Shown one piece after another: positions 3,340 through 57,242 of a stretch of DNA of 64,000 nt; within the stretch, counting starts at the first letter, position 1; each line of letters opens with the position of its first letter. The notes below the pieces were generated by a model. That model saw nothing but the letters and a program-made list of their open reading frames with translations, was not told where the DNA came from and did no database searches. The stretch is from Pseudoxanthobacter soli DSM 19599 (lineage in GTDB: Bacteria > Pseudomonadota > Alphaproteobacteria > Rhizobiales > Segnochrobactraceae): positions 1 to 64,000 of the forward strand of contig NZ_FRXO01000001.1 in NCBI RefSeq assembly GCF_900148505.1, written 5' to 3'. The translations under genes and the position numbers were made by a program.

Positions 3340-3687
3340 CGTCGGGCCTCCTGCATCGGGCATGGCGGCATGCCTGCCCACCCTATCAACGCGCGCCCGA
3401 AATCCCGGTTCCGGCCCGCTCCGCGCCCTCGCGGCTGCCATCGCAGACCGCCGCATCTGCCGTAAGCGGCACCGCGCCAGCCGGAGATCTCCCGCGCGCT
3501 TCACCTCCATCAAGCCTCATCGCGCCGTCGGCGCCTTGATGCGCCGCAAGGGCCGCGGGCCATGGCGGCCCCGTCCGGGGAGGCGGGGCAGGAGGGCAGG
3601 GCAGGAGGACAGCGCAGAAGGAAAGGGCAGGACGACCGGGCGGATATCCCTGTTGTCCAGATCTGTTCGATCTGAACGGGCCGCACT
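3340..3687. other. Intergenic region with purine-rich low-complexity tract and partial dispersed repeat
   Basis: No gene is seen in about 350 bases. Positions 3577-3640 are a G/A-rich tract with repeated GGGCAGG and GGAGG units. From 3641 a partial copy of the dispersed repeat begins and runs into the stop codon of the next gene. Confidence 0.5.
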
Positions 3688-3691
3688 CTAG
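3641..3691 (+). repeat. Dispersed intergenic repeat, partial copy (right half)
   Basis: Matches the right half of the full element at 57123-57242: a GGATATCC segment, the inverted arms AGATC/GATCT, the CTGAACGGG block and the terminal CTCTAG. The terminal CTAG contains the TAG stop of the minus-strand dehydratase gene. Confidence 0.7.
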
Positions 3692-5745
3692 CGGCGCTGC
3701 GCCGGTGCGAACGAGACCGGGACGACGTTGATCTCCGCCACGCCCGTACCTCCTCCCACGCCCGTGCCGCTCGTGGCCTTGTCCGCGCGCTCGCCAGCCT
3801 TGCCGTCCGTCGCCGGCCGGTGGGTGGCGACGATGTCGACGGTCGCCGCGATCGGCCGGTATTCCGGCACGGCGCGGCAGAGCAGGCCGATGGCGGCCGC
3901 CACGTCGGTGTTCTCGACCGCGGCGCGCAGGCCCGCGAGCAGGTCGGCGAGTTCCGCCGCGTCGACGCCGTTCTCGCGGCTGCGCATGATCTTCGGATGC
4001 TGGGTCGGCATCGGATTGTCGCCGATCAGCAGTTCCTCATAGAGCTTCTCGCCCGGCCTGAGGCCGGTATAGACGATGTCGACATCGCCGTCGGGCGTCG
4101 CCGCGTCGCGCACCTTGAGGCCGTGCAGCTCGATCATCCGCCGGGCGAGATCGTCGATGCGCACCGGCTCGCCCATGTCGAGCAGGAAAACCTCGCCGCC
4201 GCTCGCCATCGCGCCCGCCTGCACCACGAGCTGGGCGGCTTCCGGGATCGTCATGAAGAAGCGGGTGACGTCGGGATGCGTCACCGTCACCGGGCCACCG
4301 CGCTTGATCTGCCGCTCGAACAGCGGCACCACCGAGCCGGACGAGCCGAGCACGTTGCCGAACCGCACCATGGAGAACACGGTGCCGGTGGAGCGGGTCT
4401 GCGCGTCCTGGCAGACGAGTTCCGCCCACCGCTTGGTCGCGCCCATCACGTTGGTCGGGCGCACCGCCTTGTCGGTCGAGACCAGCGTGAACCGCTCGAC
4501 GCCATGGCGCATTGCCTCCCGTACCACGGCGTCGGTGCCGAGCACGTTGTTGGCAAGGCCGCCGAGCACGTTCTGCTCCACCAGGGGCACGTGCTTGTAG
4601 GCGGCGGCGTGATAGACGGTCTCGATGCCGAACGCCTCGATCACCTCGCCGACGCGCTTGCCGTCGCAGACATTGCCGAGCACGGGATAGATTGCCGGCA
4701 CCGCCATGTCGTCCCGCTCGGCGACCGCGAGCGCGATGTCGCGCAGTTCCTCGTCGATGGAATAGAGCGCGAATTCGCTGATCTCGTAGAGCACGATCAG
4801 GCGCGGCCCGAGCGCGACGATCTGGCGGCAGAGCTGCGAGCCGATCGAGCCGCCCGCGCCCGTCACCATCACCGCCTTGCCGCGGATCGAGGGCGACAGC
4901 AGGTCGATGTGGGGATCGACACTCGCCCGCTCCAGCAGATCCTCGGGCGTCACCGGCCGAAGCGCGTCGATCCGCGCCATGCCGGTCAGAAGCTCCGGCG
5001 TGGATGGCACCGTCTGCACCATCACGTCGAGGTCGGACAGCCGCTTCACCAGCGCCTGCCGGCGCCGAAGCGGGATCGAGGGCATGGCGAGCAGCAGCCG
5101 CTTGACGCCGTGGCGGTCGATCAGCGCCTGCAGTTCGCCCGGCGGATAGACCCGCCGCCCGCTGATGTGCGTGCCCTGCAGCGTATGGTCGTCGTCGACG
5201 AACGCCACCACTTCGTATTCGCGGCCGGCATCGAGCGCCATGTGGAGTTGCAGTCCGGCCCGTCCGGCGCCGTAGACGATCACCGGCTCCAGGTCGTGCA
5301 GCCGGCGGGTCAGCCAGAAGAAATAGGACTGCCCGGCGAGCCGGCTGCCCCACGTCATCAGGAAATAGAGAATGCCGAAGATCACCGGCACCGAACGCGG
5401 CACCATCAGGTGCGGCGCGAGATAGGCGAGCACATAGAGCCCGATCACGAGCCCAACCACGCCGCGCGCGATGATGAAGGCGGCGGTGCGGTCGGAGGAG
5501 CGCACCAGAATGCGGTAGACGCCGCTCCACCAGAACAGCGCCACCGCCACGAACGGGGCGACGGCGAACACCGGCAGGCCCGGCGTCAGGATCCACCATT
5601 CCCAGAAATCGGCGAGGCGAAGTCCATAGGCGCACCACAGCGCGATCGGCGCCAGCAGCGCGTCGATCGCCGCGAACGAGAGCCGGCGCGTCAGGCGCGG
5701 CACCTCGTAGAGCCGGCGGTGGAGGCGGTCCCACAACGTCTTCAT
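3688..5745 (-). CDS. FlaA1/CapD/PglF-type membrane-bound nucleotide-sugar 4,6-dehydratase
   Basis: Probably converts UDP-GlcNAc to a 4-keto-6-deoxy sugar used for capsule, O-antigen or glycan initiation. From the ATG at 5745 it has 685 residues: about four membrane helices (20-140), a first Rossmann-like domain with GAGRAG (159-164), then an extended SDR domain with TGAGGSIG (295-302), YKHVPLVE, STDKA (423-427) and MGATKR. In the last motif Met replaces the catalytic Tyr of ordinary SDR enzymes, as is typical of this subfamily. The upstream-extended reading adds 18 low-complexity residues and is not preferred; the ribosome site is weak. The gene lies downstream of an O-antigen-ligase-like gene on the same strand. 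Confidence 0.9.
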   Translation of the reverse strand: MKTLWDRLHRRLYEVPRLTRRLSFAAIDALLAPIALWCAYGLRLADFWEWWILTPGLPVFAVAPFVAVALFWWSGVYRILVRSSDRTAAFIIARGVVGLVIGLYVLAYLAPHLMVPRSVPVIFGILYFLMTWGSRLAGQSYFFWLTRRLHDLEPVIVYGAGRAGLQLHMALDAGREYEVVAFVDDDHTLQGTHISGRRVYPPGELQALIDRHGVKRLLLAMPSIPLRRRQALVKRLSDLDVMVQTVPSTPELLTGMARIDALRPVTPEDLLERASVDPHIDLLSPSIRGKAVMVTGAGGSIGSQLCRQIVALGPRLIVLYEISEFALYSIDEELRDIALAVAERDDMAVPAIYPVLGNVCDGKRVGEVIEAFGIETVYHAAAYKHVPLVEQNVLGGLANNVLGTDAVVREAMRHGVERFTLVSTDKAVRPTNVMGATKRWAELVCQDAQTRSTGTVFSMVRFGNVLGSSGSVVPLFERQIKRGGPVTVTHPDVTRFFMTIPEAAQLVVQAGAMASGGEVFLLDMGEPVRIDDLARRMIELHGLKVRDAATPDGDVDIVYTGLRPGEKLYEELLIGDNPMPTQHPKIMRSRENGVDAAELADLLAGLRAAVENTDVAAAIGLLCRAVPEYRPIAATVDIVATHRPATDGKAGERADKATSGTGVGGGTGVAEINVVPVSFAPAQRR

Positions 5746-15021: not shown

Positions 15022-15138
15022 CTGGAGCGTGTCCCGTTCGGATCGAAGCCATCCGGCCCGACGGGGGGACAAGCCCGGAACGTGCAATCTGGAGCGCGAC
15101 CTTCGATCCGGCGGTGCCGTCCGGTCGGAAGCGCTCCG
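15022..15138 (-). repeat. Dispersed intergenic repeat, copy inside the purS-purQ gap
   Basis: Aligns in reverse orientation with the element at 57123-57242: GGAGCGTGTCCCGTTCGGATCG at one end, the central AATCTGGAGCG block, and GTCGGAAGCGCTCC at the other. It is diverged but keeps the block order. It lies between two genes of one operon. Confidence 0.7.
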
Positions 15139-15161
15139 TCAGGCGGGGGCTGGCCCCGCCC

Positions 15162-27215: not shown

Positions 27216-27524
27216 TCGGCATCCTCGGACCGCGCGTTGTTTAGCCCGCAACGAAAGCCGGAAAGGTTCCCCGCACGGCCACCCCGGTCGCAAACAGACA
27301 CAATCCGGGCGATCCGGTTAACTCCCCGTCAAGGTTAATATCAGCATTCTCGCCGGCAGGACGGATCGCGCGCTGGGCGCGGATTCGCCGGAGCCCGTTC
27401 CTTCGGATCGAAACGGTCCGACCGACGGGGCAGGCTCAAGCTTTTGAATCCGGAGCCGTTTTCCTCCCGGACGGGCGATGCCGTCCGGCCGGGAAGCGCT
27501 CCGGGCTTGCCGGGAGTTCTGCCG
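27216..27524. other. Intergenic region containing a dispersed repeat copy
   Basis: About 310 bases without a gene. The second half is the repeat at 27390-27503. The first half contains GGTTAACTCCCCGTCAAGGTTAATAT (27317-27342), AT-richer than its surroundings and a plausible promoter or operator site for the hydrolase gene. Confidence 0.45.
27390..27503 (-). repeat. Dispersed intergenic repeat, nearly full copy
   Basis: Reverse-orientation copy of the element at 57123-57242. It shares an exact central block (GGCTCAAGCTTTTGAATC, compare GCTCAAGCTTTTGAATC in the reverse of the type copy), the outer GGAAGCGCTCC and the paired arms in each half. Substitutions in the two stems are largely compensated. 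Confidence 0.8.
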
Positions 27525-30466: not shown

Positions 30467-30520
30467 GGCATCGTTCCCCGTCGGTTGTTGAAGCAGGGGC
30501 CGCTTTGCAGCGGTCGCCGC

Positions 30521-30636
30521 CGGAGCGCTGTCCGAACTCATGGGATCATCAGATCCACCGGAAATCGCTCCGGATTCAAAAGCCTGAGCATATCCTTGCC
30601 GTTCAGATCGGTTCGACATGAACGGAATTGGCTCGG
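30521..30636 (+). repeat. Dispersed intergenic repeat, copy between exbD and tonB
   Basis: Same orientation as the type copy at 57123-57242: GGAGCGCTGTCCG, GGATCATCAGATC, GAAATCGCTCCGGATTCAAAAG, TGAGCATATCCTTG, CGTTCAGATCGGTTCGACATGAACGG. It fills most of the gap between two genes of one operon and makes the tonB start ambiguous. Confidence 0.8.
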
Positions 30637-30702
30637 GCCTCGGCCGGCTGGCATCGTCGCCCGGCACAACGCCGGGCCGGCGCGCCCGCAGCGTTCCGGA
30701 TG

Positions 30703-45360: not shown

Positions 45361-45460
45361 CATCGCGAAAAACGAAACCGCCCGGTCCTTTCGAACCGGC
45401 AAGTCGAATCGGCAAGCCGCGCATCGCGAAAAACGAAACCGCCCGGTCCTTTCGAACCGG
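45361..45460 (-). repeat. 39-base direct repeat: duplicated terminator
   Basis: Positions 45361-45399 and 45422-45460 are identical (period 61). The second copy continues into GCGGCGC and so completes the arms CCGCCCGGT/ACCGGGCGG; the first lacks the last arm bases and is a truncated copy. Confidence 0.9.
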
Positions 45461-45472: not shown

Positions 45473-46366
45473 CTATTGCTGATTCTCGGGCACGAGGAAC
45501 TTCGGCAGCTTGTTCTTCGGCGCGTTCGTCGTCCCCTGGTTCTGGGGCGACGCACCGCTCGGCGGCGGGATCCGGCGCACCTGAGGCGGCGGCGGAGCAG
45601 CCGGACGCGGCGGCACCATGGCCTGCGGCGGGCGCGGCGGCACGGGCGCCGCTGCCGGCGGCCGCGGAGCGCCGGGCGGGTTGTTCCACGCCGGGTTGTT
45701 CGGCCGCGGGCCGCCGGGGTTGTTCCAGCCGGGATTGTTCCATCCACCGGGAGGCGGGGGAGGCGGAGGAGGCGGGCGGTTCCAGCCGCCGGGAGGCGGC
45801 GGCGGAGGCCCGCCGGGATTGTTCCAGCCCGGATTGTTCCATCCACCGGGAGGCGGGGGTGGCGGAGGCGGCGGACGGTTCCAGCCACCCGGAGGCGGCG
45901 GTCCGCCCGGACCGTACCCACCACCCGGCGGGCGCCAGTTTGGCGGGGGCGGGCGGTTCGGATTGTTCATCCACCAGGCGCGCTCTCCGTACCAAGGCTC
46001 GGTCCGATAATAGTTGTCCCAGTAGTTTCCGACGCTGAAACCGATGATCGGCAAGCCGAGGGCGGTCGCATAGGATGGGATCTCGACCATCTGGTTCTGG
46101 TAGGAGGCCTGCAGATACTTGCCGGACATCCACCCGCGACTGCCGCCCCACGCGACATCGCACCAAACATAGCCGCTGACGCAACCGAAGATCGCGAGGC
46201 GCGCGTTCTTCTGCACCATGCCGACGGCGGGATATTGCGTGCCCGGACCCGCGCGCAGGTAGACATTGCCGGTGGAATACCCTGCCGTCTGCGCCGAAGC
46301 GGCGGTCGGCGCCAGTGCGAACGCGGCGGCCACCAGGGCACCGGCGGCCCAATGCCGTGTTGTCAT
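45473..46366 (-). CDS. Secreted SH3-domain protein with proline/glycine/tryptophan repeats, 297 aa
   Basis: AGGAGG precedes the ATG at 46366. A signal peptide (1-25) is followed by a bacterial SH3 domain (25-90: STGNVYLRAGPGTQYPAVGMV, VWCDVAWGGSRGWMSGKYL), then a short Trp/Tyr-rich region and a 160-residue low-complexity tail in which a 33-residue unit (GGWNRPPPPP...GGWNNPGWNNPGG) occurs twice. The last 25 residues are basic and unrelated (KNKLPKFLVPENQQ). SH3b domains bind wall or peptide ligands. It is convergent with prmA. Confidence 0.85.
   Translation of the reverse strand: MTTRHWAAGALVAAAFALAPTAASAQTAGYSTGNVYLRAGPGTQYPAVGMVQKNARLAIFGCVSGYVWCDVAWGGSRGWMSGKYLQASYQNQMVEIPSYATALGLPIIGFSVGNYWDNYYRTEPWYGERAWWMNNPNRPPPPNWRPPGGGYGPGGPPPPGGWNRPPPPPPPPPGGWNNPGWNNPGGPPPPPPGGWNRPPPPPPPPPGGWNNPGWNNPGGPRPNNPAWNNPPGAPRPPAAAPVPPRPPQAMVPPRPAAPPPPQVRRIPPPSGASPQNQGTTNAPKNKLPKFLVPENQQ
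45714..45910 (-). repeat. 99-base in-frame tandem repeat in the proline-rich tail
   Basis: Two near-identical units of about 99 bases encode the 33-residue Pro/Gly/Trp/Asn unit. They differ at a few third positions; boundaries are approximate. Confidence 0.65.
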
Positions 46367-47119: not shown

Positions 47120-48943
47120 ATGTTCCAGACATTCGACGATATCGCTGATCCCACCCTCGGTGCCGGCCGCCTCGCCCGGCTGCGCACGCGCCTCGCGGCC
47201 GATGGCCTCGACGGCTTCCTCGTGCCGCGGTCGGACGAGCATCAGGGCGAATATGTCGCCCGGTCGTCGGAGCGCTTGGCATGGCTCACGGGCTTCACCG
47301 GTTCGGCCGGCATGGCCGTGGTGCTGCCGGAAGTCGCCGCGATCTTCGTCGATGGGCGCTACACTCTGCAGGTGCGCGATCAGGTCGACATCGCCGCGTT
47401 CGAGCCGCGGCATCTGATCGAGGAGCCGCCGCCGCAGTGGCTTGCGCGTCACCTGAAGCCCGGCATGCGCATCGGCTATGACGGCATGCTCCATACTGTT
47501 GCCGGCGTTCGACGCTTCAAGGCCGCCTGCGAGGCCGCCGGGGCGACGCTGGTGGCCGTTGAGGCCAATCCGCTCGACGCGGTGTGGACGGACCGGCCCG
47601 CGCCACCGCAGGGCGCCGTCATCCTTCAACCCATCGAGCTTGCGGGCGAAACAGCCGCCGCCAAGCTCGAGAAGATCGAGGCGCTCGTCGCCGAGGCCGG
47701 AGCCGACAGCGCGGTTCTGACGCTGCCGGATTCCGTCGCATGGCTCTTCAACATCCGCGGTGCCGACATCGAGCACAATCCCGTGCCGCTGTCGTTCGCG
47801 GTGGTGCGCCGGGGTGCCCGGCCGCAGCTCTTCATCGACGGGCGCAAGCTCTCCAATGCGGTCCGCGCCGCGCTGGAGGACGTGGCGGAGATCGGCGAGC
47901 CCGATGCGTTCATGCCGGCCCTCGACGAGGCCGGCCGCGGCGGTGCCCGCGTTCTGCTCGACCCGGACTGGGTCGCGGAGGCGATCCGCGTGCGTCTCGC
48001 CACCGTCGGCGCGAAGATCGTCGAGGGCCGCGACCCGGTGCTGCTGCCGAAGGCGGTGAAGAACGCCGCGGAGATCGTCGGCACGCGCACCGCGCATCTG
48101 CGCGACGGCGTCGCCGTGGCGCGCTACCTCGCGTGGCTGGACCGCACCACCGCGGCAGGCGATCTCGATGAGATCGGCGCCGTCGAAGCGCTGGAGCGTT
48201 TCCGCGCGGAAGGCGGCCTTCTCCGGGATATCTCCTTTCCCAGCATTTCGGGCGCGGGGCCGAATGGCGCCATCGTGCATTACCGCGTCAGCCGGGCCAC
48301 GAACCGGGCGCTTCGGCGCGGCGAACTGTTCCTGATCGATTCCGGCGCCCAGTACCAGGACGGCACCACGGACATCACCCGCACCGTGCCGGTCGGGGAG
48401 CCCACCGCCGAGATGCGCGATCGCTACACCCGCGTGCTGGCGGGCCACGTCGCGGTGGCGACGGCGCGGTTCCCGGTCGGCACCACCGGTGCCCAGCTCG
48501 ATCCCCTGGCCCGGCTGCCGTTGTGGCAGGCGGGGCTCGATTTCGACCATGGCACCGGCCATGGCGTCGGCGTCTACCTGTCGGTGCATGAAGGCCCGCA
48601 GCGCATCGCCAAGGCCGGCAGCGCCACCCCGCTCGAACCCGGCATGATCGTCTCCGACGAGCCGGGCTACTACAAGACCGGCGCCTATGGCATCCGCATC
48701 GAGAACCTGCTGCTCGTGACACCTGCCGAGGTGCCCGCGGGCGGCGAACGGCCCATGCTCGCCTTCGAGACGCTCACGCTCGCGCCCTACGACCGGCGCC
48801 TGATCGAGCCGTCGCTTCTATCGCCCGCCGCGCTTCAGTGGATCGATGCCTACCACGCCCGGGTGCGCGACGCGCTGTCACCGTTTCTCGCGGGTGACGA
48901 CCTCGCCTGGCTCGTCGCGGCGACGGAGCCGTTCGGCGGCTAG
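47120..48943 (+). CDS. pepP: Aminopeptidase P (Xaa-Pro aminopeptidase), long form
   Basis: Cuts N-terminal residues that precede proline. At 607 residues it is the three-domain long form, with two creatinase-like N-terminal domains (1-310) and the catalytic pita-bread domain. Metal ligands are in DSGAQYQDGTTDITR (two Asp), GTGHGVG (His), VSDEPGYY (Glu) and AFETLTLAPYD (Glu). It is probably cytoplasmic (no signal). The TAG stop lies in the terminal CTAG of a dispersed repeat. Confidence 0.93.
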   Translation: MFQTFDDIADPTLGAGRLARLRTRLAADGLDGFLVPRSDEHQGEYVARSSERLAWLTGFTGSAGMAVVLPEVAAIFVDGRYTLQVRDQVDIAAFEPRHLIEEPPPQWLARHLKPGMRIGYDGMLHTVAGVRRFKAACEAAGATLVAVEANPLDAVWTDRPAPPQGAVILQPIELAGETAAAKLEKIEALVAEAGADSAVLTLPDSVAWLFNIRGADIEHNPVPLSFAVVRRGARPQLFIDGRKLSNAVRAALEDVAEIGEPDAFMPALDEAGRGGARVLLDPDWVAEAIRVRLATVGAKIVEGRDPVLLPKAVKNAAEIVGTRTAHLRDGVAVARYLAWLDRTTAAGDLDEIGAVEALERFRAEGGLLRDISFPSISGAGPNGAIVHYRVSRATNRALRRGELFLIDSGAQYQDGTTDITRTVPVGEPTAEMRDRYTRVLAGHVAVATARFPVGTTGAQLDPLARLPLWQAGLDFDHGTGHGVGVYLSVHEGPQRIAKAGSATPLEPGMIVSDEPGYYKTGAYGIRIENLLLVTPAEVPAGGERPMLAFETLTLAPYDRRLIEPSLLSPAALQWIDAYHARVRDALSPFLAGDDLAWLVAATEPFGG

Positions 48944-49034
48944 AACCTCTCCCGGTCGGATCGAACCGATCCGAAGGACGGGCTCACGAACCCGCAGCGC
49001 TTTCCCACTCGATCGGATGATTTCATGCGATCGC
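48940..49034 (-). repeat. Dispersed intergenic repeat, copy after pepP
   Basis: Reverse-orientation copy of the element at 57123-57242: CTAGAACC-TCTCCCGGTCGGATCG, paired arms CGGATCG/CGATCCG, AGCGCTTTCC, GATCGGATGATTTCATGCGATCG and a terminal GAGCGCTCC. Its first CTAG overlaps the pepP stop. Confidence 0.7.
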
Positions 49035-49142
49035 CGAGCGCTCCGGACCCCGTCCGACATGATCGCCGGGAACCGACTTGGCCGTTGCGTGGTTTTCCTT
49101 CCGGATGCCCCAAGGGGGCGCAAGGAAGGAAAGGGCGACATC

Positions 49143-57122: not shown

Positions 57123-57242
57123 CTAGAGCGCTTTCCGATCTGATGGAATCATCAGATCGACCAGAAATCGCTCCAGATTCAAAAGCTTGAGCATATATCC
57201 TTGTCGTTCAGATCGATCCGATCTGAACGGGATATGCTCTAG
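57123..57242 (+). repeat. Dispersed intergenic repeat, type copy (120 bp, two hairpins, CTAG ends)
   Basis: Ends are CTAGAGC and GCTCTAG, perfect inverted termini. The left hairpin is GATCTGATG-GAAT-CATCAGATC; the right hairpin CGTTCAGATCG-ATC-CGATCTGAACG; a central AGATTCAAAAGCTTGAGCATAT joins them and GGATATGCTC closes the whole. Five other copies occur at 3641, 15022, 27390, 30521 and 48940. It codes for nothing. The layout recalls rhizobial intergenic mosaic/palindromic elements. Confidence 0.9.

Follow-up and report, generated by a model that had tools for sequence, protein, structure and literature searches.

A dispersed two-hairpin repeat of Pseudoxanthobacter soli as a probable MITE-like mobile element

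Taken together, our analyses argue that the two-hairpin repeat dispersed through the genome of Pseudoxanthobacter soli DSM 19599 is probably a MITE-like mobile element of 112 bp, gene-less and non-autonomous. The repeat is short (112-118 bp), contains no gene, is present in many dispersed copies (at least 150) and ends in terminal inverted repeats. In our model, a candidate transposase acting in trans would cut at YTAR and duplicate the central dinucleotide, usually TA, and the hairpins would act as DNA, most likely in a single-stranded or cruciform form used by the enzyme or by replication.

The repeat in its window and across the order

The family was found in a window of 64,000 nucleotides (positions 1 to 64,000 of contig NZ_FRXO01000001.1), by which we mean the whole stretch of DNA analysed. 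The 120-bp type copy has, as in the preliminary description, the terminal inverted repeats CTAGAGC/GCTCTAG and two hairpins; the terminal repeat is perfect over these 7 nt only, and its outer CTA is counted as flank in the reading that we prefer. The features of the type copy and the further copies in the window are as follows.

57123..57242, plus strand: type copy, full element including the flanking YTAR 4-mers (134.6 bits with covariance model R1)
57124..57125, no strand: left TA, putative target duplication, within the left 4-mer CTAG at 57123-57126 (junction statistics)
57126..57173, plus strand: hairpin 1, GAGCG...CGCTC (hairpin and covariation analysis)
57160..57163, plus strand: 4-nt bulge on the 3' side of hairpin 1, ACCA in the type copy, consensus ACAA (copy alignment)
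57174..57188, plus strand: linker CAGATTCAAAAGCTT (copy alignment)
57189..57239, plus strand: hairpin 2, GAGC...GCTC (hairpin and covariation analysis)
57201..57204, plus strand: 4-nt bulge TTGT on the 5' side of hairpin 2, mirroring hairpin 1 (copy alignment)
57240..57241, no strand: right TA, putative target duplication, within the right 4-mer CTAG at 57239-57242 (junction statistics)
30520..30637, plus strand: diverged full copy (96.7 bits, R1)
27388..27504, minus strand: diverged full copy (81.3 bits, R1)
15022..15139, minus strand: diverged full copy (52.0 bits, R1)
48940..49046, minus strand: strongly diverged full copy (43.5 bits, E 1.7e-9, R1)
3641..3691, plus strand: half copy, hairpin 2 (78% identity with the type copy over 50 nt; R1 15.6 bits, E 0.035)

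Four of the 33 copies on which R1 was built come from the window, namely the type copy and those at 30520, 27389 and 15022, and therefore match it by construction; the copy at 48940 was absent from the training set and was still matched (43.5 bits, E 1.7e-9). Of the six window copies originally proposed, five stand as full elements under R1 and the half copy is weak (E 0.035), though over 3644-3693 its identity with the type copy is 78%. The copy first delimited as 48940-49034 is present, but the real element is 12 bp longer, and the initial estimate of 20-40% divergence is roughly right for the window copies, but the one at 30520 shares 89% identity with the type copy over 71 nt. At the Rfam gathering threshold, one tRNA was matched in the window and no curated family covers the repeat. 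The window also holds a 39-nt perfect direct repeat with starts 61 nt apart (45361-45460; R1 12.8 bits, E 0.19) and a 99-nt tandem repeat (45701-45898), both of unconvincing kinship to the element.

As first described, the family is dispersed and its copies are mostly intergenic. In the P. soli genome (5.16 Mb, 27 contigs), blastn placed at least 43 sites, the type copy included, at 92-100% identity to most of the type copy (best 40 of 263 candidates scored), and R1 gave at least 150 matches (best 150 of 4151 candidates). The exact 14-nt left end occurs 79 times, against one occurrence of the same pattern read backwards. The early expectation of hundreds of copies per genome is therefore borne out as far as well over a hundred, while a figure of about 400 is an extrapolation from the window, since the 150 matches are the best of 4151 candidates and include two of the five full window copies.

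Matches at E 1e-4 were found in eight of 61 genomes, P. soli included, and a sample of the order, scored under strict filters with 12 candidates per genome, gave matches at E 1e-5 in 50 of 297 genomes (P. soli again included) and 34 of 122 genera. All three species of one genus carry the element; Methylocapsa palsarum has at least 150 matches and Methylocella tundrae 93 (150 candidates scored), and two other genomes of the P. soli family have one weak match (G001) and three (G002). Phages gave no match to the element at E 0.01, and the two plasmid records that carry it both belong to M. tundrae strain T4. The two deposited sequences of that plasmid copy (L085 3001-3111, L086 3001-3108) differ by 3 bp in length inside the hairpin element, by sequencing error or real change. 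Such patchy occurrence, together with near-identical copies within one genome, fits mobility.

The statistics below draw on 102 places in P. soli (from 150 alignment rows, the best 150 of 206 matches) and 71 in other genomes (from 134 rows), with second-strand and duplicate matches dropped. About 100 of the best 150 P. soli copies were retrieved, top scores first, so the copy statistics lean to young copies.

Ends, target site and insertion into genes

Junctions were compared in 138 of 172 copies; the other 34 were dropped because they lacked inner ends resembling AGC and GCT, and a further copy, from an initial 173, lay too near the end of its locus. Information amounts to 0.94-1.72 bits across the left 4-mer and 0.92-1.48 bits across the right one, and to at most 0.11 bits at each of 24 positions outside. 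The outer base is C or T at the left in 136 of these 138 copies and G or A at the right in 135, and the consensus base is kept at 267 of 276 inner places (G, C) against 215 of 276 outer ones (Fisher p 8e-12). The simplest reading of these sequences is an element of 112 bp, GAGC...GCTC, that would sit in a YTAR target in which the central dinucleotide is duplicated, although the outer base could alternatively be a decaying base of the element itself, changing from C to T. Where both 4-mers depart from CTAG, they agree in seven copies against 3.1 expected (p 0.026), and where both dinucleotides are other than TA, left equals right in seven of 23 against 3.6 expected, a weak excess (p 0.053). With this weak dinucleotide agreement, and with exact YTAR (TA flanked by Y and R) at both ends in 61 of 138 copies, the case for target duplication rests above all on the in-gene site L122.

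This site belongs to an FAD oxidase gene of P. soli, one of four genes that carry the element in frame, the others being a second P. soli gene, treZ (L113), and genes for a heparinase II/III (L087, protein P0001) and a NiCoT transporter (L088, P0002). In all four, relatives align before and after the insert, and protein alignment to them shows a net gain of 38 residues, or 114 bp, as one gap. A single 38-residue gap was obtained with three of three target loci for L122; with five of five for L087, two pairs of which overlap within one gene and so represent three genomes; with one of four for L088; and with one of two for L113, where the other relative (L207) splits the gap as 30 + 8. Protein alignment was used for L087 because the raw DNA alignment to L096 and L097 was uninformative, and at L100-L102 the protein alignment gave no clean gap. 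At L122, CGAG stands at both junctions, and the relatives have a single CGAG (L209, L210) or CGAA (L208); as the empty-site relatives are other species or genera, their target bases may have changed. Since 112 + 2 = 114 bp, or 38 codons, some in-gene insertions stay in frame, and the element is thereby a source of 38-residue protein inserts. Copies inside called genes number 7-8 of 102 in P. soli, of which L113 and L122 were compared with relatives, and 3-5 of 71 elsewhere. In the genome G043, a GNAT acetyltransferase gene (L190 581-1267) contains an in-frame, element-derived stretch of about 40 residues.

A bias of location towards gene ends, raised at the outset as a point to check, is evident. 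In P. soli, 49 sites lie between co-directional genes, 34 between convergent and 7 between divergent genes, with 7 inside genes and 5 undetermined, whereas the window gaps overall are 17 co-directional, 10 convergent and 8 divergent; gene context comes from a rough caller based on G+C by codon position, which missed the L087 gene in one run. Counting as gene-end sides those where a coding-like frame ends within -90 to +60 of the element, the stop codon coincides exactly with the junction (TA + G) on 34 of 95 sides in P. soli and 27 of 60 in other genomes, and the next commonest offset accounts for 7 and 2, respectively. Because random insertion into gene tails should spread the stops over three frames, this one-frame excess points to the stop codon itself as the insertion site, the element then restoring it: as the element begins with G, a stop codon used as target would stay TAG, and insertion there would be harmless.

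Compensated pairing and the mobilising enzyme

GAGC...GCTC forms the conserved foot of both hairpins. The two are mirror images, in that the 4-nt bulge of hairpin 1, ACAA, is on its 3' side and that of hairpin 2, TTGT, on its 5' side; across copies the linker stays near the sequence of the type copy, and the apical stems vary by lineage yet remain paired. The proposal that stem changes are compensated is confirmed by a covariation test on 47 diverse copies of our own choosing (alignment A4): in 265 cells both sides had changed with the pair kept, against 76.4 after shuffling (265 was reached in 0 of 500 shuffles) and no more than 85 in the slid controls. Of all cells, 89.4% were paired (77.0% shuffled, at most 44.4% slid), two-sided change occurred at 33 of 44 pairs against 23.9 shuffled, and of 27 pairs predicted by RNAalifold 25 had two-sided changes. 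The signal was weaker in the 33 closer copies, with 13 two-sided cells against 2.4 shuffled and with further pair types not above the shuffles (256/500).

The preliminary description had ascribed this compensation to selection on RNA or DNA structure, and of the two the RNA part is not supported. Selection on RNA would be expected to spare G·U more often than A·C, but the two mismatches are about equally common (91 versus 95 in the 102 P. soli copies, 118 versus 104 in the 71 others), as counted in alignments fitted to the model structure, a fit that should favour neither type. The strand relative to co-directional genes is likewise unbiased (23 versus 26 in P. soli; 21 versus 12 elsewhere, p 0.16). 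This parity and random orientation indicate that pairing is maintained as a property of the DNA, either through a constraint or through copying templated by the hairpin, two causes that our comparisons do not separate. A structured RNA conserved for transcript function, be it a terminator, an mRNA stabiliser or a small RNA, would account for the covarying stems, the stops exactly at the junction and the 3'-end bias of 34 convergent against 7 divergent sites (10 against 8 among the window gaps). We consider it improbable, however, given the mismatch parity, the lack of a significant strand bias, the patchy presence in the order and the copies within open reading frames, and the 3' bias can also stem from the YTAR target combined with selection against damage.

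It is a distinct possibility, short of probable, that the compensated stems are unselected products of quasi-palindrome correction, in which one arm is rewritten from the other when replication switches template. Whole apical stems have been exchanged as blocks in L088, L181 and L182 of alignment A4, and the strand symmetry is also as this process would have it; between families, however, the apical stems have diverged further than the feet and the bulge region, a difference not expected from correction alone. Correction is compatible with a mobile element, and the odds of the two do not compete: in our model, the complementarity of the arms would be maintained either by the need for a DNA form or by such copying. 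One further copy, L223 (about 1424-1513), is a single-hairpin chimera that joins the left foot of hairpin 1 to the right foot of hairpin 2, possibly because the two bulge regions recombined or the stretch between them was deleted.

Among the 79 exact left ends of the P. soli genome, the 16 outside the best-150 list were all read, and no autonomous relative was recognised among them, which weighs against the reading we prefer; each proved to be a short fragment of an end or a copy that is diverged, partial or reduced to a single hairpin. An R1 match starts at that end in nine (L212, L213, L214, L217, L218, L220, L221, L223, L224), and L225 has a weak match on the opposite strand only. R1 gave no match at L215, L216, L219 and L226, nor at the tandem neighbours C2:323030 and C5:439125, one of which is a degenerate copy; the remaining unmatched ends are short, and the long frames beside unmatched ends resemble, as judged by eye, ordinary genes. 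The IS427-group insertion sequences of P. soli (PF13340, five matches) were considered as a parent and set aside, their visible ends AGGCTTGTGGGGATT being unlike those of the element. At L003 (1-95, start of contig C10; IS end AATCCCCACAAGCCT), an insertion sequence of this group abuts an element copy precisely at the TA of the latter, a single case that could be due to chance. Contigs C15 and C16 each have another copy of the same insertion sequence at their start (L193, L194).

Tandem copies overlap by 4-6 nt at six junctions in P. soli, seven in M. palsarum and one in G307, counted by reading the matches listed, and all 14 of the junctions so listed run head to tail. A palindromic target should permit both directions, so that this is a point against the reading we prefer, although the bias may reflect the instability of long perfect palindromes. 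The neighbours compared (L006/L024, L017/L021) differ in sequence and are thus not fresh duplications. Head-to-tail tandems would also suit a REPIN- or BIME-like unit, that is, two inverted REP-type hairpins moved via single strands by a RAYT (a Y1 HUH transposase) with no target duplication, as would the inverted hairpin pair, the asymmetric bulges, the tetranucleotide at the foot and the DNA-level pairing. Such a unit is nevertheless unlikely, as Y1_Tnp (PF01797) is missing from 14 of 15 element-rich genomes, P. soli among them, and is present in five of 14 controls, and as the L122 site carries a duplicated 4-mer. RAYT/Y1 transposition is accordingly disfavoured, with Y1 in one of the 15 element-rich genomes and none in P. 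soli itself.

Relation to known repeats

The layout was initially likened to rhizobial palindromic and mosaic elements, and the likeness holds for a two-palindrome repeat of Rhizobium and Sinorhizobium plasmids, which we found at 1699 places in 396 plasmid records. This repeat is about 117 bp long and has CTAG-like ends, two hairpins and bulges of 4 nt and 3 nt at mirrored places, and its terminal TAG coincides with the end of a gene in four of nine loci; its arm sequences differ from those of the present element. R1 matches it over full length in five of the nine loci (37.8-40.9 bits, E 4e-9 to 2.6e-8) and at 24 bits (1e-4) in one, with no match in three, and by model score it is a distant relative. 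It may be RIME1; RIME, attributed to Osteras 1995, is reportedly a rhizobial element of about 108 bp with two large palindromes. The present element behaves like the rhizobial mosaic repeats and may belong with them; classing it as a RIME is not yet justified.

REP, BIME and REPIN sequences are inverted hairpin pairs that occur in high copy number outside genes, and Y1 transposases move REPINs. The present element shares the paired hairpins, the copy number and the extragenic location and differs in lacking Y1/RAYT in 14 of 15 carriers and in its putative target duplication at YTAR. Rickettsia palindromic elements (RPE) insert in frame within protein genes. Likened by description rather than by sequence, they resemble our element in that habit (38 net residues in four genes) and in size, given as 95-136 bp (PMC2267715); they differ in their distant hosts and in that the present element is mostly intergenic. 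Likewise by description, Bru-RS1 and Bru-RS2 of Brucella are similar in size and palindromes, being palindromic repeats of 103-105 bp that serve as insertion sites of IS711 (PMC3163539, PMC2266754, PMC2267715). When it inserts into Bru-RS repeats, IS711 targets YTAR and doubles the TA (PMC3163539, PMC2266754), a likeness to the IS427-group insertion sequence at the TA of L003. Br-REP1 and Br-REP2 of Bradyrhizobium are palindromic, lie at 3' gene ends and come from a related host group, and the consensus printed there differs from ours (PMC5082802). The literature matches listed, a weak guide because subscription papers are thinly covered, contained no description of the present family.

We tentatively propose that the present family, the rhizobial mosaic repeats and perhaps Bru-RS form one order-wide superfamily of DNA-hairpin MITEs, which would be mobilised in trans by a transposase of IS5/IS427 type that cuts at YTAR and duplicates TA, and would have evolved for harmless insertion, with TAG stops rebuilt and whole codons added within genes. 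The strand test favours DNA over RNA as the acting form, and the ends, the target rule and the empty sites make mobilisation directly testable. Finally, we note that rhizobial intergenic repeats have so far figured as "intergenic sequences of unknown function" (PMC2573895); one family of this type now has exact ends, a target rule, empty sites and a reason for its placement at stop codons.
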